Positions 3 to 42,404 of a stretch of 61,643 nt of DNA are shown piece after piece. The stretch comes from a virus. The notes below the pieces were generated by a model that saw only the letters and a program-made list of their open reading frames with translations, had not been told where the DNA came from and did no database searches. The stretch covers positions 1-61,643 of the IMG/VR virus record IMGVR_UViG_3300037486_000465. One strand, written 5' to 3'. The number at the start of each line of letters is the position of its first letter. The stretch's first letter is position 1. Position numbers and translations under genes: made by a program.

Positions 3-1049
3 CCTGATTCAGTTCTTGATGCAACTTTAGGTGGTTTCGTTAATTATTATCCTTCACTTATTTCAACTCTTGAAGATCAAGTTCAAGGTTTTGTAGGTGC
101 TGGAGAAAATGATGACGAAGATTGGTCAGGTACATTCGTAAATGGCGCAGTTCTTTATGAACCAATGGAAAGAGGCGTTGGTGAAGTTGAATATCCTAAA
201 GCATTAGGTCTTCAAGTATTCACTAAATTCGTTGCAGTTGGTACTTATCAAGTATCAGTTTCTGTTACTCAGGAACAAATTCAAGACCTTAACAAACAAT
301 GGGGTATTGATGTTATTGCAATGGTTGAAAACGCTGGTATTAATGAAATTTCTCAGGCTATTAACAAAAACATCCTTTCAAGATTATTTGCTCATGGTTG
401 GGATAACCACATTAAAGCTAACACCGTTGAAGGAATTAACCTTAACTTAGACCTTACTTCAGGTAGTGCATCAACAACTCCTTCATACGCTTATATGGCA
501 GGTGGAGCAGTTACTACCAGTACTATGGTCCTTCCTGGATTCCCAGTTTATGCTCCTGCTAGTACTACAGCATTTGAAAACCAAGACACTGTAATAAAAA
601 GAGTTATGGCTCTTATACTTTCAGCTGGTAATGTTGTAATGCAAAGAGGAAGAAGAGGTCCTGCAAACTTTATCGTTACAAACCTTAAACTTGCTACAGC
701 TCTTCAAAGCAATGCAGCTTATGCATTCTCACCAATGACCAATACATTTACTCAATCAAACGGTTCATTATACCCACTTGGTACAATCGCCGGAATGACA
801 CTCTATGTAGATCCTAACATGCTCTACACTGATACCAGAGTACTTGTAGGACGTAAGGGTGCTATTGATGAACCCGGAACAGTATTCTGTCCTTATTTAA
901 TGGCAGAAAGCGTTAAGCTTATTACTGAAGGTACAGGCGCTCCTAAAGTTATCATCAAAACTAGATACGCTTTAGTAGATGCAGGTTTCCATCCAGAAAC
1001 TCAGTATTTAACACTTTACATTAAAACTAATACAGGCGCAATAATTTAA
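3..1049 (+). CDS. 23: Major capsid protein, T4 gp23-like (5' partial)
   Basis: The reading frame is already open at base 3 and has no stop before 1049, so the ATG at 165 is internal and the true start lies left of the window. The C-terminal half follows the T4 gp23 pattern: an RRGPANFIV segment matching gp23 RGRGNFII, then LGTIAGMTLYVDP (T4: LGGKYRVYIDQ), VGRKGAIDEPGTVFCPYL (T4: VGYKGPNEMDAGIYYAPY) and KTRYALVDAGFHP (T4: KTRYGIGINPF). This is the HK97-fold shell subunit that forms the head lattice. The gene is followed directly by a hairpin terminator, which fits a highly expressed late gene. The similarity was judged from memory of T4 gp23, not by alignment. Confidence 0.88.
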   Translation, partial: PDSVLDATLGGFVNYYPSLISTLEDQVQGFVGAGENDDEDWSGTFVNGAVLYEPMERGVGEVEYPKALGLQVFTKFVAVGTYQVSVSVTQEQIQDLNKQWGIDVIAMVENAGINEISQAINKNILSRLFAHGWDNHIKANTVEGINLNLDLTSGSASTTPSYAYMAGGAVTTSTMVLPGFPVYAPASTTAFENQDTVIKRVMALILSAGNVVMQRGRRGPANFIVTNLKLATALQSNAAYAFSPMTNTFTQSNGSLYPLGTIAGMTLYVDPNMLYTDTRVLVGRKGAIDEPGTVFCPYLMAESVKLITEGTGAPKVIIKTRYALVDAGFHPETQYLTLYIKTNTGAII

Positions 1050-15580: not shown

Positions 15581-16306
15581 TTATATTATATTTCTATTTA
15601 AAGTATTAGTTTTATTTAATTTAGCTTTTAATTTATCTAAATTCATCGTAACATCATAAGGTCTTTCAAATTTATGATCATCTAATATAGGGATACAATC
15701 TTTTTGAGTTTCTTTTGCTAAATCGTATAATGTTTTAATTTCTGTTCCTACATTATAAACTCCACAAGCATCCAACATTATTAATTGAATAATTAGATCA
15801 GCGATAACTTCTACGTAATCTAAATTACTAATTAAATCTATCCAGCCGGTTTTCCATGGAAACGGACGGGGTTTAAAAGAGTTTCTTGCTATTAAATATT
15901 TTTTTGATATAGCCTGTATATATCCATCAGACAACAATTTTGTATATGTATACCAGTTATTAATATGTACAGGAACATCATCTTCACTTGCGCAAGATTT
16001 AGAATTTCCGTAAATATAATCTGTACTTATATGAACTAATTTTTTATCAAATGTATTGCATAAATCAGCTAAATAAATTACGCCCAAATAATTTATATTC
16101 CAATGACGTTCTTTAGTATTATCAATAGTATTAGTATATCCAATACAATTAATTATTGTATCATAATCATCTTTCATTATAAAATCTGCATATGACGCAG
16201 GAGAAAGAAAATCTATATTATTTTTTTTTCTACTTATGTAATCCCAGGAGGTTTGTTTAACTATTTCTGTTCCCAACAAGCCATCACCTAATATTAAAGG
16301 TTTCAT
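15581..16306 (-). CDS. RmlD-like NDP-4-keto-sugar reductase (SDR)
   Basis: 241 aa. ILGDGLLG (5-12) is the NAD(P) loop. HISTDYIYG (92-100) and WYTYTK (Y119, K123) match the RmlD/dTDP-4-dehydrorhamnose reductase pattern. It is shorter than RmlD (about 290 aa), with a reduced C-terminal substrate domain. It could reduce the 4-keto group made in the pathway that includes the RfbH-like dehydrase, which it overlaps by 4 nt. Confidence 0.75.
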   Translation of the reverse strand: MKPLILGDGLLGTEIVKQTSWDYISRKKNNIDFLSPASYADFIMKDDYDTIINCIGYTNTIDNTKERHWNINYLGVIYLADLCNTFDKKLVHISTDYIYGNSKSCASEDDVPVHINNWYTYTKLLSDGYIQAISKKYLIARNSFKPRPFPWKTGWIDLISNLDYVEVIADLIIQLIMLDACGVYNVGTEIKTLYDLAKETQKDCIPILDDHKFERPYDVTMNLDKLKAKLNKTNTLNRNII

Positions 16307-17592
16307 AATTGAATGTTTTTTGTAATGTTGTCAATATATTCAAATGTTTTTTCTGTATAATTTGGAGAACACCCCAAGAAAAATACTTTCTCTAAAACTT
16401 GGTTAGAATTAGGATATTTTTCCCAATCATCTAAATTTTTATAAGCTGGATGCAACAAGATATTTCCTGCAAAATAATTTCTTGTTTGTATTTTATTTTT
16501 TTCTAGTTGTTCAACTAAACTTACCTTTATATTTTTAGATTTGCATATAATTGGTATTCCAAACCAAGATACAAAGGAACCTTCATTTTCATCTATAACT
16601 CTAATTCCTTTTAAATTTTTTTCTAAAATATTTTGTATTATTTTTTTGTGTCTAATTCTTCTTTCAATAATATTTTCAACTTTATCTAATTGGCATAATC
16701 CGATTGCGCCCTGAAAATCCATTGGTTTTAAATTATATCCAACATTTGTAAAAATATATTTATGATCTAATAAAATATCTTGTTCTGGAAGCCATTTACT
16801 AAATCTTTTTTTGCAAGATCCATTAGATAATAAATTTTCAACACCAACACATGTACAATCTCTGCCCCATGTTGCCATACTTTTAGCAATCTTAATAATT
16901 TCATATACATTTGAAGAAATCATTCCGCCTTCTCCTGTTGTAATATGGTGAGCAGGATAGAATGAACAGCTAGATGCAATTGAATATTCAGATAAATATC
17001 TATCTTTCCATTTTGATCCCAAACTATCACAATTATCCAATATTAATTCAATATTATATTTACGACACAGACTTAATAAAAAATCGATATCAGGTGGATT
17101 TCCTAATACAGGAGAAACAAAAATACCTTTAGTTTTTTCAGTTATTTTAGCCCCAATATCATATATATTGAAATTTAAAGTTTCAAATTCTATATCAATA
17201 AAAACTGGCTTTAAATTGTTTATAGTTATTGCTGATAATGTTGTTGGAAATCCCACAGCAGATAAAATTATTTCATCATTATCATTCCAATTAAAATATT
17301 TTTTAAGAGCAGCTATCATAATTAAATTAGCAGAACTGCCAGAATTAACCATAACAGAATAATCTAATTTAAATTTTTTAGAAAAAGCTTTTTCAAAATC
17401 ATGAACACTCGTTCCGCTTGAAAACCAATTTCCTAATATTAAAGATTCTATTATAGTATATAATTCTTTTTCATCATAATATGGACCAGAATAATACACA
17501 TTATCATCGCTTAAATGCATGAATTTTGGAATTTTTCCATAAATTCTATTCATATTAATTAAAAAGTCAGTTATATAAGCAGAAGGTTCCAT
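16303..17592 (-). CDS. rfbH: RfbH-type CDP-4-keto-6-deoxyglucose-3-dehydrase (E1)
   Basis: 429 aa of the DegT/DnrJ/EryC1 aminotransferase fold. In SFYPAHHITTGEGG (210-223) the usual PLP lysine is replaced by His, the mark of E1/ColD-type dehydrases, which use PMP to remove the C3 hydroxyl. Cysteines C188, C246, C248 and C260 give C-x57-C-x1-C-x11-C. The characterised E1 [2Fe-2S] site is C-x57-C-x1-C-x7-C, so three of the four spacings match. This points to the CDP-linked, iron-sulfur E1 rather than ColD, and to a 3,6-dideoxyhexose. No E3 reductase or CDP-glucose 4,6-dehydratase is seen nearby, so the host may supply them. Confidence 0.85.
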   Translation of the reverse strand: MEPSAYITDFLINMNRIYGKIPKFMHLSDDNVYYSGPYYDEKELYTIIESLILGNWFSSGTSVHDFEKAFSKKFKLDYSVMVNSGSSANLIMIAALKKYFNWNDNDEIILSAVGFPTTLSAITINNLKPVFIDIEFETLNFNIYDIGAKITEKTKGIFVSPVLGNPPDIDFLLSLCRKYNIELILDNCDSLGSKWKDRYLSEYSIASSCSFYPAHHITTGEGGMISSNVYEIIKIAKSMATWGRDCTCVGVENLLSNGSCKKRFSKWLPEQDILLDHKYIFTNVGYNLKPMDFQGAIGLCQLDKVENIIERRIRHKKIIQNILEKNLKGIRVIDENEGSFVSWFGIPIICKSKNIKVSLVEQLEKNKIQTRNYFAGNILLHPAYKNLDDWEKYPNSNQVLEKVFFLGCSPNYTEKTFEYIDNITKNIQL

Positions 17593-30115: not shown

Positions 30116-31357
30116 TTAAAATAATGATTTAGATTTAATAATTTTTGCTTTTTCTAATTTCATAACATCATCTATAAGATTTTGAAATATAAATTGACTA
30201 TCACAATGATTTCTCGTTATTTCAAAACTACATTCTAAATATTGTTTTTTGAGCGTTGGTTTATTATATATATCGTTTATTTTTTCTACTATTTCACCGA
30301 CATTTGCTAAATCTTTTTTTACAAATAAGCCATATGTATCTAAATCAACAAAATGCTTAGCTGTTTTTTTGCCATTTTCCCAAATATAACAATTTTGTGC
30401 CCAATGATAATCAAACATTGGAACTACCCCTACACCAATTATTTCACATTGAGCATATTCGAAATTGTCTCCATAAGCATCCGCAGAAAGATGATAAAAA
30501 TCTGCACCTACTAAAGATGTGCTTAAGGTTTCCATTCCATCAACATAATCATAAGGTCCAAAGACATAAATATGTTCATAACTTCTATCTGCATTTAGAG
30601 CTGACATTCCAGTTGAAAAGAAATTTTTATCTACCTGAATAATATCATGCTTGGGTATTCTTTTTTTAATATCATCATAAAAGATGTTAAGGGCACCAAG
30701 TGATCTCTCGACACCTTTCATTTCAAGTAATATGTTATTTTGTTTAGCATATGGAAGGAATCCAAACAGTCTATCAGGTTGCTTGAATGTGGCATATCTA
30801 CCAAGGTAGGTAATCTTTTTTACATGATCAGTCTTTCTATATTTTTCTAATTGAGAAAAGTTAAAGCCTACTTGTAATTGTATAAATTTTGATTTAATAT
30901 CGGTTCCAAAAATTTCTACAAGTTTATTATAGAATGGCGATGTAATGCTATGAGAAACTATACCATCACATAAATTACAAAGTTCAAAGAAATTTGCGTT
31001 TCTATGTATTGATGCTATTTTGTGATCATTTTGAAATATAATTTTTTTAGTTTTAATATTTTTCACCATATTAAGAAAGCCATCAATTGCCCATTGAGAA
31101 TGCTTAATACTTGGGACACTATTTATAAAAACATAGTCAAATTCATTTAACACAGTTCCAAATGTACTTATGTTATCTTTTGTTATAACGCTAAATTTGG
31201 GCAAATTTTGCATATTTCTTCTACCCCATTTTTTATCGTCTAGATCATAAACAGTATATTCAATTCCTTTACTTGTAAAAAACTCTGAAAGCTCGATAAT
31301 ATATCTAGTTACACCGGCACCTTCAAAAGATCTTCCTACTACAATTGCTATTTTCAT
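30116..31357 (-). CDS. a-gt: T4 AGT-like DNA alpha-glucosyltransferase
   Basis: 413 aa, close to T4 AGT (about 400 aa). Blocks align in order with AGT as I recall it: SFEGAGVTRY (10-19; T4 GLEGCGVTKF), FINSVPS (77-83; T4 IINSVPA), FQNDHKIASIHRN (108-120; T4 YQHDHSVLSLRRN), YLGRYATFKQ (T4 WIGRTTTWKG), MKGVERSLGA (T4 MEGLERSPAF) and YAQCEIIGVGVVPMF (T4 YTHLELGACGTIPVF). AGT moves glucose from UDP-glucose onto hydroxymethylcytosine in DNA and protects it from host nucleases. A gp42-type enzyme at 49793 supplies the modified base. Confidence 0.82.
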   Translation of the reverse strand: MKIAIVVGRSFEGAGVTRYIIELSEFFTSKGIEYTVYDLDDKKWGRRNMQNLPKFSVITKDNISTFGTVLNEFDYVFINSVPSIKHSQWAIDGFLNMVKNIKTKKIIFQNDHKIASIHRNANFFELCNLCDGIVSHSITSPFYNKLVEIFGTDIKSKFIQLQVGFNFSQLEKYRKTDHVKKITYLGRYATFKQPDRLFGFLPYAKQNNILLEMKGVERSLGALNIFYDDIKKRIPKHDIIQVDKNFFSTGMSALNADRSYEHIYVFGPYDYVDGMETLSTSLVGADFYHLSADAYGDNFEYAQCEIIGVGVVPMFDYHWAQNCYIWENGKKTAKHFVDLDTYGLFVKKDLANVGEIVEKINDIYNKPTLKKQYLECSFEITRNHCDSQFIFQNLIDDVMKLEKAKIIKSKSLF

Positions 31358-35298: not shown

Positions 35299-36072
35299 AT
35301 GAAATATAGCGAGTTTTTACAATTAGATCAATTATTAGAATCTAAAGGAACAACTTTAGTAAAGGAACTAAAGGAGCTAAATGAAGCTACTCCTCAATTA
35401 CCAACCGCACCACAAAAACTTGATACTGAAAGAGGAGGAATTTTTACAAATTGGGGCAGATTGAAAACAAAATTGAATAACATAGCTAAAAATACACAAA
35501 AGCAATTACTTGTAAAAGTTTTAAATAAATATTTGCCAAATATTCTTCAAACAGAAAAACAAATGGTAGAAAAAATGCAAAAACCTAATAATACTGTACA
35601 ATTACAAAAAGTAGCTAACGATAATTATGCTGCGATTAAAAGTAATCAAAATAAACAAATAAACACTATCATTACAGTAATGGATCAATTTATTGATAAT
35701 ATAACACAAGAAATGTATAAAAAAATAAATGCGAGTAATGTAACTAATGAAAATAAACTTAAGTTAAAAAATTATTGGCTATTATTAACTACACAAATTT
35801 CTATGAATGCATTATCTTATATAATTAACGAACGCGGAAAAATAATAGATTCTATTTTTGGAAATGATAAAAAGGCAAGCGAACCGGTAAAAAAGGCAGC
35901 CAATCAAGATCTTATTCAAGCAAGAGATAAACAGGGGAAATTTGTAAGTGCAAAAAAACAGGAATTTACAACTAGCCAAAAAAATCCAAGTGAGCCTAAA
36001 CCTACAGTACCTGCTCCTGCGCCAGCTACTACTCCAGCACCCGCTATTACTCCAGCACCGGCTACAAAATAA
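35299..36072 (+). CDS. Pro/Ala-tailed protein with targeting-like N-terminus
   Basis: 257 aa from ATG 35299; an upstream in-frame ATG at 35200 would run through the divergent gene start and promoter, so it is rejected. Begins MKYSEFLQLDQLLES, with an LLE site. The body is helical and basic with no recognised domain. The tail is low-complexity PAPAPATTPAP. Ends 12 nt before the next gene. Candidate head-internal protein. Confidence 0.6.
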   Translation: MKYSEFLQLDQLLESKGTTLVKELKELNEATPQLPTAPQKLDTERGGIFTNWGRLKTKLNNIAKNTQKQLLVKVLNKYLPNILQTEKQMVEKMQKPNNTVQLQKVANDNYAAIKSNQNKQINTIITVMDQFIDNITQEMYKKINASNVTNENKLKLKNYWLLLTTQISMNALSYIINERGKIIDSIFGNDKKASEPVKKAANQDLIQARDKQGKFVSAKKQEFTTSQKNPSEPKPTVPAPAPATTPAPAITPAPATK

Positions 36073-36084
36073 TATAATTATAAT

Positions 36085-37044
36085 ATGTCAGAAAAAAAAT
36101 TAGTTTGTGAATCATTAGAAGAGTTTAATTTTCTTGTAGAGGCCAAAGAAGGAGAACATGGAATTGGTAGTGGCGTATGGAAAGCCGTTAAAACTGCTCC
36201 AGGTCGTATATTGAGAAAATCAAGAGCAAGAAACATTATACAAAAATATCAAAAGAAATTAACTCAAAGGATTAATGCCATTGTTCCTAAATATGAACCA
36301 AATATTGCAAAATTAGTTGAAAAAATCAAAAATAGAATAGCTCAAATTAATCCTACAGCATCAGAAGAAATTCAGAAAAATCAAAAAGAAGATATTCTTG
36401 ATGACATGAAAGATAATATGAAAAGCTTGCTAGATTCAATGAAAACTGCGATGGAAGAACAATTAAAAATTTACGCAGAAAGTTTGCATGATAGGTTAAC
36501 TAGAACAGGAACGATAACAGGTGTGGACTTCTTCCCCGAAGAAAAAACCGCTCTTTTATCAGAATGGAAAGTTGTAGAAGAAAATATAAATAAATTAATT
36601 CAAGAAAAACTTATTAATTTATTAGACAACGTTAATATTAAAGACTTTCAAGAAATGAAAGCTGAATTAGAAGAGTATATAAATAATGCAAAGGGTTGGT
36701 TTTCGCCTACATTATTAACAACAGGAACAGTAGATGATTTAGATCCTAAATCAGATGAATACAAATTATGGGATTATATTTTTAATAAAGCAGGATATAC
36801 TTTTAATCAGCCTTATTTAATAAATGATACTAGTAGATTTCCTATAAGAACTTTTTCTCGACATATTGAATTTAAAATAGATGCCAATAAAGCAAAAGTA
36901 GGATATTTATTCGTACAAAAAGATAGAAAACGAGGTTGGATACCAGTTTTAGATCACCCTGATATAATTCATTTAATTAAGCCCAAAGAAACTTTTGCAG
37001 AAGGTTTAGAGGTAGTAAAAGCTATAGATAGTGCATTAAAATAA
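36085..37044 (+). CDS. Unknown helical protein with targeting-like N-terminus
   Basis: 319 aa. Begins MSEKKLVCESLEEFNFLVEA, with SLEE and FLVE as possible protease sites. The middle (about 60-200) is long charged helix. The end has a compact strand-rich part (RKRGWIPVLDHPDIIHL). No domain recognised. Confidence 0.6.
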   Translation: MSEKKLVCESLEEFNFLVEAKEGEHGIGSGVWKAVKTAPGRILRKSRARNIIQKYQKKLTQRINAIVPKYEPNIAKLVEKIKNRIAQINPTASEEIQKNQKEDILDDMKDNMKSLLDSMKTAMEEQLKIYAESLHDRLTRTGTITGVDFFPEEKTALLSEWKVVEENINKLIQEKLINLLDNVNIKDFQEMKAELEEYINNAKGWFSPTLLTTGTVDDLDPKSDEYKLWDYIFNKAGYTFNQPYLINDTSRFPIRTFSRHIEFKIDANKAKVGYLFVQKDRKRGWIPVLDHPDIIHLIKPKETFAEGLEVVKAIDSALK

Positions 37045-37053
37045 TATTTAATT

Positions 37054-37920
37054 ATGTTAGGAAGAGAAGCATACGAAGAATTTAAAAAATTAGAAAAACA
37101 GGTAAATGAAGTAAGAGCAATCTATAATCATTTAAAATCTGATATAGCTTCTATGTCTGATGGCCAAATTAAATCCCAAGTAACAAAAATATTAAACAGA
37201 ATAACAAAAATAGATTTTGATTTAATAAATGATTATTTAGAAGCTTTAAAATCTTATCTTATATATGATGACTTGAAACTAAAGGCCGAGGAAATTCTAA
37301 AAGATATAGATGAAATTAAAGAATACGTTTATTCACTTAAAAAAGAAGAAATTAAACCAGAGCCAAAGCCTGAGCCCAAACCCGAAGAAGATACAACTGT
37401 TCCGCATGCTAATAAATTAGATATAATTAGAGATAAATATACATTTCTTCAAAAAGAAATAGATGCATCAGATACTGATGCAGTCATTAAAGATGCTAAA
37501 AGGCTTGATACATTATTATCAAATTTAAATTTTGAAGATCTTCCTGAAGGAGATTATGAAGAAATGTTTAAAATTAAAAATGAAGTTTCGAGAATTATAA
37601 AAAATCTCGTAGGTGTTGAAAAATCAGAAAAATATGGTCCTTATATTATGGCACCTTTAATTGAATTAATTGCCAATATTTATACTTTAGGAAATAAAGC
37701 CAAAGCAGAACAAAAGGCTGCTACACTTTTGAACTTCATAGAAGATCCAGAAAGAATAGAAATGTTTGAGCCCGCAATTAAAAGAATTATTGCAAAAAAA
37801 ATGACACCTAAAGAATTTAGAACTTTTTATGAATCTACAAAGGCAATGATACGCGGAGAAAAGAAATTTGAATCTTTTGGAAAATATAAGGAACGAAATG
37901 AATTATTTTATCTCATATAA
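37054..37920 (+). CDS. Unknown helical protein with EPKPEP linker
   Basis: 288 aa. Two helical blocks are joined by KPEPKPEPKPEED at about residues 104-116. The N-terminus (MLGREAYEEFKKLEK) is only weakly like that of its neighbours. The C-terminus has KKFESFGKYKERN, which resembles the N-terminal tags of neighbours. Overlaps the next gene by 23 nt. Confidence 0.55.
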   Translation: MLGREAYEEFKKLEKQVNEVRAIYNHLKSDIASMSDGQIKSQVTKILNRITKIDFDLINDYLEALKSYLIYDDLKLKAEEILKDIDEIKEYVYSLKKEEIKPEPKPEPKPEEDTTVPHANKLDIIRDKYTFLQKEIDASDTDAVIKDAKRLDTLLSNLNFEDLPEGDYEEMFKIKNEVSRIIKNLVGVEKSEKYGPYIMAPLIELIANIYTLGNKAKAEQKAATLLNFIEDPERIEMFEPAIKRIIAKKMTPKEFRTFYESTKAMIRGEKKFESFGKYKERNELFYLI

Positions 37921-38653
37921 TCAATATAAAAAACAAATAGTTTTAAACGAAACGTATGAAAGTTATCAAGAATTAAAGATTTTGGCAGAAGAAATTTCTG
38001 CAAAAATTAATATTTTCAATAGTTCTATAAATAAATTGTATCCATTATCAAAATTAGTACAAAATTCGCGTTATACAGTAATTAAAGATTTTATAACTAA
38101 TCAAGTCTGTATAATTATTACTGATCAACTTGATACTCCAGCCGCTTATGTATCAAATGATAGATACGATCTAGCTTTCGGAAACAATTTTAGGAGTAAA
38201 CATGAAAATATTTGTAAAACTGGAGTTATTTTAATACGTCCAACTTCTAAAAATTCTTCAGCTTTAATTCATGAATTAGAGCATGCGTGGGATGATTATC
38301 GTTCAAAGGGAAAACTTTTAAATACAAAATTAGGACAAAAATACAAAGAAAAAGCAGAAAAATATATATCTCAACAAACTGGAAAATCTGCAGCGTATGA
38401 TCCAGCTTTAACAACATTATATTATCGTACGCCCCACGAAATAAGTGCATATTTTGTTGAAGTATTAGAAGAAATCAATTTCTTTAGAGATGAATCAGAA
38501 ATGTATTTAAGAGATTTTAAAGATTTATACGAAGAATTCGTAGAAAAATTTCAAGGATACGAATATTTAACGCCTAAAGATAAAAAAATACTTGCTAGAA
38601 AATTTTCTCAGTATTATTATAAATTAAAGGAAAGAAATATTTACGAAGAATAA
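37898..38653 (+). CDS. Putative zinc metalloprotease (HExxH)
   Basis: 251 aa from ATG 37898, preceded by an AAGGA element; the frame extends 10 codons upstream to 37868. SALIHELEHAWDD (H125, E126, H129) is a zincin HExxH motif at the end of a hydrophobic stretch. TPHEISAYF (H180, E181) may give the third ligand. The C-terminus is charged and helical. Substrate unknown. Its place beside a SET-domain gene suggests a host-directed protein, but a capsid or cell-wall role is possible. Confidence 0.7.
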   Translation: MNYFISYNQYKKQIVLNETYESYQELKILAEEISAKINIFNSSINKLYPLSKLVQNSRYTVIKDFITNQVCIIITDQLDTPAAYVSNDRYDLAFGNNFRSKHENICKTGVILIRPTSKNSSALIHELEHAWDDYRSKGKLLNTKLGQKYKEKAEKYISQQTGKSAAYDPALTTLYYRTPHEISAYFVEVLEEINFFRDESEMYLRDFKDLYEEFVEKFQGYEYLTPKDKKILARKFSQYYYKLKERNIYEE

Positions 38654-38671
38654 ATATAATAAAAATATTAT

Positions 38672-39373
38672 ATGAAACACAAAATTAAACCATTTGAAGA
38701 ATTCAAAAAGATAAATGAAGAATTTTATAATCCTTTTGAAGTAGATAATCCAATAGAAACAAAGCCTTCTCATATTGCAGATAAGGGTGGAGTATTGAAA
38801 ATGCGTAAAGAAATATTTAATGTTAATCGCGTTGAATACTCTAAAAAGAAAAATGGAAGTTATTGTGTTCTTGCAAAAACTCAATTTGCTAAAGGTGAAA
38901 TAGTTGAAATAGCGCCAGTTATATTTGTAGGGTTTGAGGCTAAAGCTGTTCCAAGATTAAAAGATTATATTTTTGAAATAGATAAAAACAAACAAACTTA
39001 TGGAGTTGTTTTAGGATATGGATCTTTATATGGGCATTCACCAACACCTAATATAACATTTGCTTATAATAAATCTAATCGTCAAATGTATTTTATGGCG
39101 GCTCAAACTATAAACGCTGGCGCAGAATTGACAATTGATTACGGAAAAGATTATTGGGCAGAACGTTCCGGATTCGGAACCATGGCACCCCAAGAACAAC
39201 CCGCAGTTCAGAGTGGAGAGTCAGTAGTTAAAGGAGAAACTAGCGAAAGCGCAGTACAGCCTAATTCTGAGGATATAACTAATGCAAGCGCAGCCAAACA
39301 ATTTGGTATGCATAATGATAAAGCAAACCCGGCAGTATCTGGAATTGCTATAAAAACTATTGGACAACAATAG
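38672..39373 (+). CDS. SET-domain protein with targeting-like N-terminus
   Basis: 233 aa. Begins MKHKIKPFEEFKKINEEF, a T4 CTS-like tag with an INE site. Residues 47-163 form a small SET domain: CVLAKTQFAKGEIVE (65-79), the knot segment GSLYGHSPTPN (117-127; N-H-S-x-x-P-N-like with G for N) and AELTIDYGKDYW (151-162, catalytic-type Tyr 157). SET enzymes methylate protein lysines from SAM. The C-terminal 65 residues are Ser/Glu/Ala-rich and probably unfolded. Target unknown. Confidence 0.82.
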   Translation: MKHKIKPFEEFKKINEEFYNPFEVDNPIETKPSHIADKGGVLKMRKEIFNVNRVEYSKKKNGSYCVLAKTQFAKGEIVEIAPVIFVGFEAKAVPRLKDYIFEIDKNKQTYGVVLGYGSLYGHSPTPNITFAYNKSNRQMYFMAAQTINAGAELTIDYGKDYWAERSGFGTMAPQEQPAVQSGESVVKGETSESAVQPNSEDITNASAAKQFGMHNDKANPAVSGIAIKTIGQQ

Positions 39374-39374
39374 T

Positions 39375-39902
39375 ATGAAAGCCAAAAAAGTATTTGAAAA
39401 ATTTGTAGCAGATTCTGATCCTATTAAAGATATGGGTATAGGCATATTTTATAAACAATGGAGAATTGATCATAATCATAAACCAATTATTACTTATATT
39501 TTTTATTTAATAGACCCAATGAATAATAAAAAAAGATACATATTTTTTATCTATTACGCACATGAAGTAGCATTGGCAAATGAAAGAGATTCTATATATT
39601 TTAGGGGCGAACGATTAATAGGAGGATGGGAGTATGGAAGCGGAACAGGATTTGCATTAAGCAATATGCAAAATAAACCCGACAGATTTTTTGATTCTGC
39701 AGAAGATACAAGTTGGTTACATAGTAAAGTATTCGAAAAGGATGTTATTGATAATCTTAAAGATGAAAAAAGCGCAGAAAAAATGATAAATGATATTTCA
39801 AATGAATGGTTTGAAGAACCCATTTTTTTAGAAATGATGAAAAAATGGTTTAAAACTGGCGTAATGAGAATTGATCATATAGAAATGAAGATTCATAAAT
39901 GA
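39375..39902 (+). CDS. Phage protein with SDPIKDMGIG N-terminal module
   Basis: 175 aa from ATG 39375; a frame start at 39360 lies inside the SET gene. Begins MKAKKVFEKFVADSDPIKDMGIGI. The same SDPI-x-DMGIGI block opens the next gene. The rest is an alpha/beta protein rich in Tyr, Trp and Phe with no known domain. Overlaps the next gene by 4 nt. Confidence 0.65.
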   Translation: MKAKKVFEKFVADSDPIKDMGIGIFYKQWRIDHNHKPIITYIFYLIDPMNNKKRYIFFIYYAHEVALANERDSIYFRGERLIGGWEYGSGTGFALSNMQNKPDRFFDSAEDTSWLHSKVFEKDVIDNLKDEKSAEKMINDISNEWFEEPIFLEMMKKWFKTGVMRIDHIEMKIHK

Positions 39903-40270
39903 AGTTAGTTAGAGAACATATTAATGAAAAGTTTATTGAGGATTCAGATCCTATAAGAGATATGGGCATTGGAATATACGGAAAACCTAAAAATTTTAAA
40001 TCTACAGATGAAATAGTAGATTTTTTAATAGAATGTTTGCCAGCTATTCTTAAAACTAATAAAATTCCCAAAAATATAATTTATTTACCAGAACAAGGAA
40101 GCGCATTTAATTGGCAATATTATGAATATTTAGATAAGTATATTAAAAAATATTTAACAATTAACAATAAAGAAACTCGGTTAGAAGCATTTTTAATAAA
40201 TTTTTGGCACAGATTACTAAAGATGGGATATGGAGTATCAAACGAAGAAATGAAAAATTATAATCAATAA
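39899..40270 (+). CDS. Phage protein with SDPIRDMGIG N-terminal module
   Basis: 123 aa. Begins MKLVREHINEKFIEDSDPIR, then DMGIGIYGKP. The first 30 residues resemble the upstream gene, after which the two proteins differ completely, so the N-terminus behaves as a portable module. The HINE site fits the prohead protease rule. Rest unknown. Confidence 0.65.
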   Translation: MKLVREHINEKFIEDSDPIRDMGIGIYGKPKNFKSTDEIVDFLIECLPAILKTNKIPKNIIYLPEQGSAFNWQYYEYLDKYIKKYLTINNKETRLEAFLINFWHRLLKMGYGVSNEEMKNYNQ

Positions 40271-40278
40271 ATTAAATT

Positions 40279-40635
40279 ATGGAATTAGATAAAATTAAAA
40301 GCATTTCTTTTTCTTTAATGAAAAGAGAAACTGAAATAGATATGGAACAAGCTAAAGCAGAATATACTAAAAAGGCATCTGCAAAATTCATAGTCCCTGA
40401 AGGATATTTTCAAAATGAAGGAATGGTTGAAACAATGGTAATTGCCATGTATGATAATCTTAAAGACAATGTAGTAAATAAAGAAGATGTAGATTCATTG
40501 GGTTTATGGATAGGTTATGAAGATATAGTTACAGATAATGCTATATCATTAACCACACTAGATGCTATTGGTGAATATTCCGCAGAAAAAATAACGCCAG
40601 TTTTTGAATTCTTCAAAATGACTTTGCCAGAATAA
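40279..40635 (+). CDS. Phage protein of unknown function
   Basis: 118 aa, acidic and helical, without the N-terminal module of its neighbours. Starts 8 nt after the previous stop. No recognised motif. Confidence 0.6.
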   Translation: MELDKIKSISFSLMKRETEIDMEQAKAEYTKKASAKFIVPEGYFQNEGMVETMVIAMYDNLKDNVVNKEDVDSLGLWIGYEDIVTDNAISLTTLDAIGEYSAEKITPVFEFFKMTLPE

Positions 40636-40839: not shown

Positions 40840-42009
40840 ATGGAAGAACTAGATTCGTCTAAAGACAGGCAGAATCAATCAGAGCAATTTGATTCTGCCG
40901 TAAACTCACACCTCGTAAGCTCATCGAAAACATTAGAATTTCGAAATAAATTTTATCCTCAAGTAACTTTATCACAATGGAACGACTGGAAATGGCAAAT
41001 ACGTAACAGTATAACTACGTATGAAGAATTGTCTCGCATTTTTGGATTATCTAATTATGAATTATCTGAAGATATAAATTTACCTCTAAGAATTACTCCT
41101 TATTATGCAAGTACAATAACTTCTATTCATCAAGGAATAGGAAAATGTGTAATTCCAACTAGTAATGAACTCATTGTTACTGAAAATGAATTAAATGATT
41201 CATTAAACGAAGAAGAACAAAGTCCAGTGCCTTGTATTGTTCATAGATACCCTGATCGTGTATTATTTCTAACTACAGACTTTTGTTCATCTTATTGTAG
41301 ATATTGTACAAGATCTCATATGGTAGGACATACCGAAATTACTAAAAAAATATGGGATAAAGGTATTCAATACATTAAAGATCATAAAGAAATTCGAGAT
41401 GTATTATTATCTGGCGGAGATCCATTAACTATGAGTGATGAAAATATTGAATATTTACTTAAAGAATTAAGATCAATAGAACATGTTGAATTTTTAAGAA
41501 TAGGAACTAAAATGCCTGTAGTATGTCCTCAACGAATTACGACTGAACTTGTTTCAAAATTAAACAAGTTTCACCCCTTGTTTCTAAGTATTCACTTTAG
41601 TCATCCCGATGAATTAACGCCTGAAGTTAAAGAAGCGTGTGAAAGACTTGCAAATGCAGGTATTCCATTAGGTTCTCAAACCGTATTACTTAAAAATGTT
41701 AATGATGATGTAGATACTATGAAAAAGCTTATGCACGGTTTACTTAAAATTCGTGTCAGACCTTATTATATATACCAGTGCGATCGCGTCGTGGGAACAT
41801 CACATTTTAGGACTCCTATAAGTAAAGGATTAGAAATAATAGAAGGATTGCGAGGATGGACAACTGGATATGCTGTGCCTCAGTTTATTATAGATACTCC
41901 CGGAGGAAAAATTCCGTTATTACCAAACTATTTTGTTGAGAAAGAAGGAAATTGTATAAAACTAAGAAATTATCAAAATAAAGAATTTACATACTATGAA
42001 GAACTTTAA
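40840..42009 (+). CDS. kamA: Lysine 2,3-aminomutase
   Basis: 389 aa. C149-x3-C153-x2-C156 (CSSYCRYC) binds the [4Fe-4S]-SAM. SGGDPL (191-196), HFRTPISKG (322-330) and PGGKIPL (PLP lysine K357) are KamA marks. D315 (CDRVVG) and D352 (IDTPGG) sit where clostridial KamA has the two Asp that hold the lysine side chain, so lysine rather than glutamate is the likely substrate. N-terminal WNDWKWQIRNSITTYEEL matches KamA more than EpmB. It turns L-lysine into beta-lysine; in a phage this is unusual. Confidence 0.9.
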   Translation: MEELDSSKDRQNQSEQFDSAVNSHLVSSSKTLEFRNKFYPQVTLSQWNDWKWQIRNSITTYEELSRIFGLSNYELSEDINLPLRITPYYASTITSIHQGIGKCVIPTSNELIVTENELNDSLNEEEQSPVPCIVHRYPDRVLFLTTDFCSSYCRYCTRSHMVGHTEITKKIWDKGIQYIKDHKEIRDVLLSGGDPLTMSDENIEYLLKELRSIEHVEFLRIGTKMPVVCPQRITTELVSKLNKFHPLFLSIHFSHPDELTPEVKEACERLANAGIPLGSQTVLLKNVNDDVDTMKKLMHGLLKIRVRPYYIYQCDRVVGTSHFRTPISKGLEIIEGLRGWTTGYAVPQFIIDTPGGKIPLLPNYFVEKEGNCIKLRNYQNKEFTYYEEL

Positions 42010-42101: not shown

Positions 42102-42404
42102 ATGAAAAAAGTAAGTAAAGACAAAAAGGTTAAATCTAAATCTCCTATGCCCAAGAAGAGCGTAAAAAAGATTAAATCCAATTTACCAAGTTTCACTCAG
42201 CGAATGTATAATATGGCGGAAAGCTTGGAAGTAGATAAGTATTTTTATGTTAACGTTGCTAAAGAAAAATTGAGCGTTAATACTCTTCAAGATAGAATTA
42301 CTGCTGCTATTTGGAGACGTTATACTTTAAAAAATTCAAACAAAAAATTTGCAACACATCAAAGTACTACTGGTACTCTTGTACGTGTAAAGAGAATGGC
42401 ATAG
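42102..42404 (+). CDS. Basic small protein, probable nucleic-acid binder
   Basis: 100 aa. The first 28 residues are Lys/Ser/Pro-rich (KDKKVKSKSPMPKK), and the rest has SFTQRMYNMAESLEVDKYFYV. The overall strong positive charge suggests DNA or RNA binding. Not recognised. Followed by a strong terminator. Confidence 0.6.
   Translation: MKKVSKDKKVKSKSPMPKKSVKKIKSNLPSFTQRMYNMAESLEVDKYFYVNVAKEKLSVNTLQDRITAAIWRRYTLKNSNKKFATHQSTTGTLVRVKRMA

Follow-up and report, generated by a model that had tools for sequence, protein, structure and literature searches.

A divergent vSET-type SET protein, probably packaged in the head of a very large T4-like phage

The window (the whole stretch of 61,643 nucleotides that was analysed, IMG/VR record IMGVR_UViG_3300037486_000465) comes from a very large T4-like phage and encodes a SET-domain protein that is probably packaged in the head and carries a divergent vSET-type domain. 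In our preferred explanation, to which we give a probability of about 0.55, a vSET-type SET domain was turned into an internal head protein that is injected and engages lysines. During head assembly, the N-terminal leader would take the protein into the prohead core, where a gp21-type protease would cut it after INE16. The mature protein would stay beside the DNA inside the capsid. It would enter the host at infection, and its SET domain would there engage lysine residues of some protein. We infer the targeting, cleavage and ejection steps; packaging is favoured by the S77 protease and gp23 on related contigs, the gp23 gene in the window and the leader-bearing operon, while the loss of residues from AdoMet motifs counts against a packaged enzyme. 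The gene is organized as follows (a slash in a sequence marks a putative cut).

38672-39373 (+): SET-domain protein gene, 233 aa, ATG start, with Pfam and PDB matches
38672-38719 (+): leader MKHKIKPFEEFKKINE, residues 1-16, with a putative prohead-protease cut after E16
38720-38818 (+): linker, residues 17-49, predicted disordered; bare viral SETs do without it
38819-39166 (+): vSET-type SET core, residues 50-165, from Pfam, PDB, AlphaFold, Foldseek and a rough dN/dS of 0.04-0.13
38864-38866 (+): codon 65, C in place of the second Gly of the AdoMet GxG (relatives: C/C/I/L)
39032-39034 (+): codon 121, G in place of the Asn of NHSxxPN (relatives: K/G/K/G)
39140-39142 (+): codon 157, motif-IV tyrosine retained (ELTIDY) in the SET alignment
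39167-39370 (+): C-terminal tail, residues 166-233, predicted disordered, ending NPAVSGIAIK... and found only within the window SET family

A SET-fold protein in a T4-type head module

The open reading frame at 38672-39373 encodes a real SET-fold protein, with a SET match well above chance. Its translation contains the strings GSLYGHSPTPN, ELTIDYGKDYW and FEEFKKINE, and the compact SET domain that an earlier note had read from these letters is borne out. In a Pfam profile search, PF00856 matched residues 64-158 (E=4e-11; 43.7 bits, above the curated cut-off of 22.4 bits). The top PDB sequence match is the chlorella virus vSET (1n3j, E=4e-13), and vSET also ranks first in Foldseek with the predicted core (3kma, E=3.8e-10, target TM 0.85); among viral models, phage and giant-virus SET proteins rank first. 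The comparison with vSET made in the note was well chosen, as this is the closest solved relative by both sequence and fold. AlphaFold, given 31 SET sequences, modelled the core (50-165) with a pLDDT of about 70-86, and residues 8-48 and 165-233 mostly below 50; the five close sequences alone gave a pLDDT of 31.6. The profile and structure-prediction checks suggested in the note therefore returned both SET homologues and a predicted SET fold, and did not refute it.

PBCV-1 packages vSET, which trimethylates H3K27 (PMC7019647). The phage protein shares its compact SET with PBCV-1 vSET (A612L), and vSET is known to be virion-packaged, as is proposed for the phage protein. The two differ in that vSET is a bare domain that keeps GYG and NHS and belongs to a virus of an algal rather than a bacterial host; leader, linker and tail are additions of the phage protein, and its AdoMet motifs are altered. 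The SET proteins of uncultured phages (IMG/VR, L066-L092) and ORF62 of Stenotrophomonas phage Ps15 are likewise phage-borne and match Pfam SET, and most are vSET-like; they differ in being about 100-160 aa long, mostly with canonical GxG and NHS and with no leader or tail. Many viral contigs carry such bare canonical-motif proteins of about 130 aa (L066-L092; WGYGSLYNHSNTPNA...). One phage paper merely lists a SET domain protein (PMC9025141) and we found no paper on phage SET function, which is essentially undescribed in the literature searched, in line with the "little-described" of the earlier note.

We detected relatives of the SET protein on five IMG/VR contigs. The 405-kb and 133-kb contigs encode an identical protein, so we count four distinct relatives (74-82% identical); "five sequences" below means the window protein plus these four, and "six records" the window plus the five contigs. 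In our tree the family groups as a single clade (support 100/99) whose branch is long and for which no sister group has support, and a tblastn search of the SET protein against annotated phage records gave no matches. The relatives sit in a T4-type head-module context, one of them on the 405-kb phage contig. A gp21-type prohead protease (S77, PF03420) is present in four of the six records, the window being a fragment without the protease, and the gp23 capsid protein in five. On three related contigs (G001, G003 and G004, the latter being the 405-kb contig) the protease comes first, followed in order by the capsid protein, a second gp23-like protein, the core block and SET. The phage origin claimed in the note is right, given the S77 protease on related contigs and the gp23-type fragment in the window:

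165-1049 (+): gp23-type major capsid protein, truncated where the window begins (gp23-type match at 198-998)
35299-40635 (+): co-directional block including the SET gene, with intergenic gaps of -23 to 18 bp and most members leader-bearing
37898-38653 (+): upstream HExxH protein (HELEHAW), leader ending VLNE/TY
39375-39902 (+): downstream neighbour, tag MKAKKVFE/KFVADSDPIKDMGIGI
39899-40270 (+): second downstream neighbour, tag MKLVREHINE/KFIEDSDPIRDMGIGI

The upstream HExxH protein gave no Pfam or NCBIfam match; the copies in G002 and G004 likewise retain its HExxH and leader, and it was not found beside SET in G001 or G003. The NCBIfam search of the SET operon genes returned no names.

Several other genes were observed in these regions. 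A lysine-2,3-aminomutase-like radical SAM protein (40840-42009, +) adjoins the SET block, as it does in L004 (12419-13594), and a small protein at 42102-42404 (+) has a lysine-rich N-terminus (KKVSKDKKVKSKSPMPKKSVKKIKS) that makes it a conceivable methylation substrate. A long run of minus-strand genes (1108-34242), mostly of 150-330 aa, separates the capsid gene from the core block and includes matches to an alpha-glucosyltransferase family (30116-31357) and an aminotransferase (16303-17592). Short second S77-like protease-domain ORFs, below the family cut-off, occur near the SET block at G001:21465-21851 and G003:11306-11713.

Altered AdoMet motifs in a core under purifying selection

The GxG motif reads SYC, SYC, SYC, SFI and GYL in the five members, and NHSxxPN reads GHS or KHS in all five, with HS..PN kept. 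The Asn of NHS is kept in all 26 other aligned SETs, both phage and bacterial. Both GxG and motif III make contact with AdoMet. Of the yeast Set1 mutants, N1016A, which alters this Asn, is null, and G951A is strongly impaired, with only partial monomethylation left (PMC3585878). Because two AdoMet-motif residues are lost in all five copies, activity cannot be assumed, and the term "methyltransferase" does not stand as the earlier note had used it, since aligned homologues keep these residues. Conversely, Y99, H122, I147, Y157 and G158 are invariant in 31/31 aligned SETs, and the core dN/dS (omega) of 0.04-0.13, a rough value with synonymous sites near saturation, indicates purifying selection. 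The domain is thus maintained, with methyl transfer uncertain: we put its retention at slightly below even odds, an estimate lowered because two AdoMet-contact motifs are altered.

These observations bear on a competing explanation, in which the protein is a pseudo-SET: it would no longer carry out methyl transfer, and its role in the head core would be structural or one of binding lysine or peptides. The residues lost in 5/5 members, the retention of the Asn in 26 homologues, the yeast Set1 mutants (PMC3585878), the long separate branch of the family and the neighbourhood of head-core genes all speak for it. On the other side, retained chemistry would easily account for the invariant Tyr157, Tyr99 and His122 and for the purifying selection on the core. 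We consider a pseudo-SET quite possible, somewhat short of probable, and its likelihood overlaps with that of our preferred explanation because it is compatible with packaging.

The leader as a candidate packaging signal

All five SET proteins keep M1-K2-x-K-I-K and [ILV]-x-E-E-F (the regular expression used to find leaders was built after the sequences had been inspected). The leader is 16 aa long in three of them and 19 aa in two, ending INE, INE, VNE, INE and LDE; E16-E17-F18 is invariant and position -3 is I, V or L in 5/5 despite the 3-aa length change. Bare viral SETs carry no such leader, which counts for packaging. T4 internal proteins have leaders of 10-19 aa that are cut by gp21, and the targeting sequence of IPIII is 10 aa long, with residues 8 and 10 governing processing (PMC9026906). 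In common with T4 IPI/II/III and Alt, the SET protein begins with a short leader that closes on an [LI]xE site of the prohead-protease type, and T4-type protease and capsid genes lie on SET-related contigs; it differs in its leader of 16-19 aa (10-19 in T4), in its unrelated passenger and in that its packaging is a proposal. The site [ILV]-x-E/E-F is compatible with a T4 gp21 cut and may form part of a packaging signal. Of the "packaging-like tag" of the earlier note, the conserved leader and its fit to T4-type capsid targeting and cleavage therefore hold, but the role in packaging itself is only suggested by them.

An LxE/A site (...HALNE/AAMGG) lies near the N-terminus of the capsid protein on the 405-kb contig; we take it to resemble the T4 cut site, a point in favour of packaging. 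Other comparisons temper this view. The alignment of that capsid protein with T4 gp23 ends short of the site, and the SET protein has no SDPIxDMGIG tag (see below); both points count against packaging. As 37% of the untagged proteins of the 405-kb contig carry [ILV]xE in residues 6-30, vs 29% of internal 25-mers, the site alone is weak evidence. The likeness of the SET leader to the T4 leader and to the core leaders is moderate and only suggestive: compared with neighbouring core leaders, 13 of 433 N-termini scored as high as the SET leader of the window, and 55 of 433 as high as those of two relatives. On the 405-kb contig, [IL]NE is over-represented in protein N-termini in general (p=2e-14). 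We rejected this as proof for the SET leader, because the tag family drives it; with that family left out, [ILV]NE is enriched 1.5-fold (p=0.1).

Such figures leave some room for another explanation: the phage SET protein would be an ordinary cytoplasmic one, its N-terminus would have no targeting role and the likeness to T4 signals would be due to chance. [ILV]xE is frequent in N-termini, the leader similarity is modest and leaderless bare SETs are frequent in viral contigs, yet leader and linker are conserved in 5/5 (dN/dS 0.06-0.25, rough for the same saturation) and genes with similar leaders lie all around, and we regard this explanation as unlikely. Still less likely is an active lysine methyltransferase, made late and not injected, whose substrates during assembly would be capsid or DNA-binding proteins of the phage itself. 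This would suit the head-module neighbourhood, the operon and the retained motif-IV tyrosine, but not the AdoMet motif losses, nor the leader, which would be superfluous unless solely for core targeting. The idea of a packaged SET protein is supported in outline by these comparisons, short of proof.

A tag family in very large T4-like phages

The two downstream neighbours of the SET gene and many proteins of the 405-kb contig share a tag architecture: a leader of 8-10 aa ending [ILV]xE, then KFxEESDPIxDMGIG. By pattern count, the records together contain 60 copies at N-termini and 27 internal ones. The 405-kb contig accounts for nearly all of them, and 87/87 have I, L or V at position -3 and E at -1; beyond these positions, the leader is conserved only in copies at true N-termini, where its length is mostly 8 or 10 aa. 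With a profile, the tag was found on that contig near the N-terminus of dozens of proteins (56, counting every start at or before residue 30), plus 26 internal copies. One ORF of 729 aa there has five internal tags about 115 aa apart, and the internal copies look as if they came from polyproteins. Outside the 405-kb and 133-kb records, among the matches listed, E is at -1 in 106/112 copies and nearly all have I, L, V or M at -3, some of these other contigs sharing a metagenome. When annotated phage records were searched by tblastn with the SDPI tag, no matches were returned.

Scanning 69 tagged or [ILV]NE-bearing proteins, we found ankyrin repeats in eight and one match each to lysozyme, AAA ATPase, VWA/metallopeptidase and HNH endonuclease families, these single matches being left outside the strict tag class. 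Tagged proteins with ankyrin-repeat and LRR-like passengers are found on the 405-kb contig (G004, loci L021-L041; e.g., 73584-75773, -).

We tentatively propose that dozens of leader-tagged proteins are loaded into the heads of these very large T4-like phages and injected, some of them being made as polyproteins that the prohead protease cuts at repeated [ILV]NE/KFxEESDPIxDMGIG junctions; the SET protein would be one member. Alternatively, the tag might serve in docking and never undergo cleavage. This family is probably a larger discovery than the SET protein.

Were it packaged and active, the SET protein would be to a virus of bacteria what packaged vSET is to the chlorella virus, and would suggest that lysine methylation is an early step in the takeover of bacteria. 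Were it inactive, it would show a SET fold put to new use in the phage head. In either case, leader and tag may provide a sequence rule predicting packaged and injected proteins among the many unknowns of very large T4-like phages.
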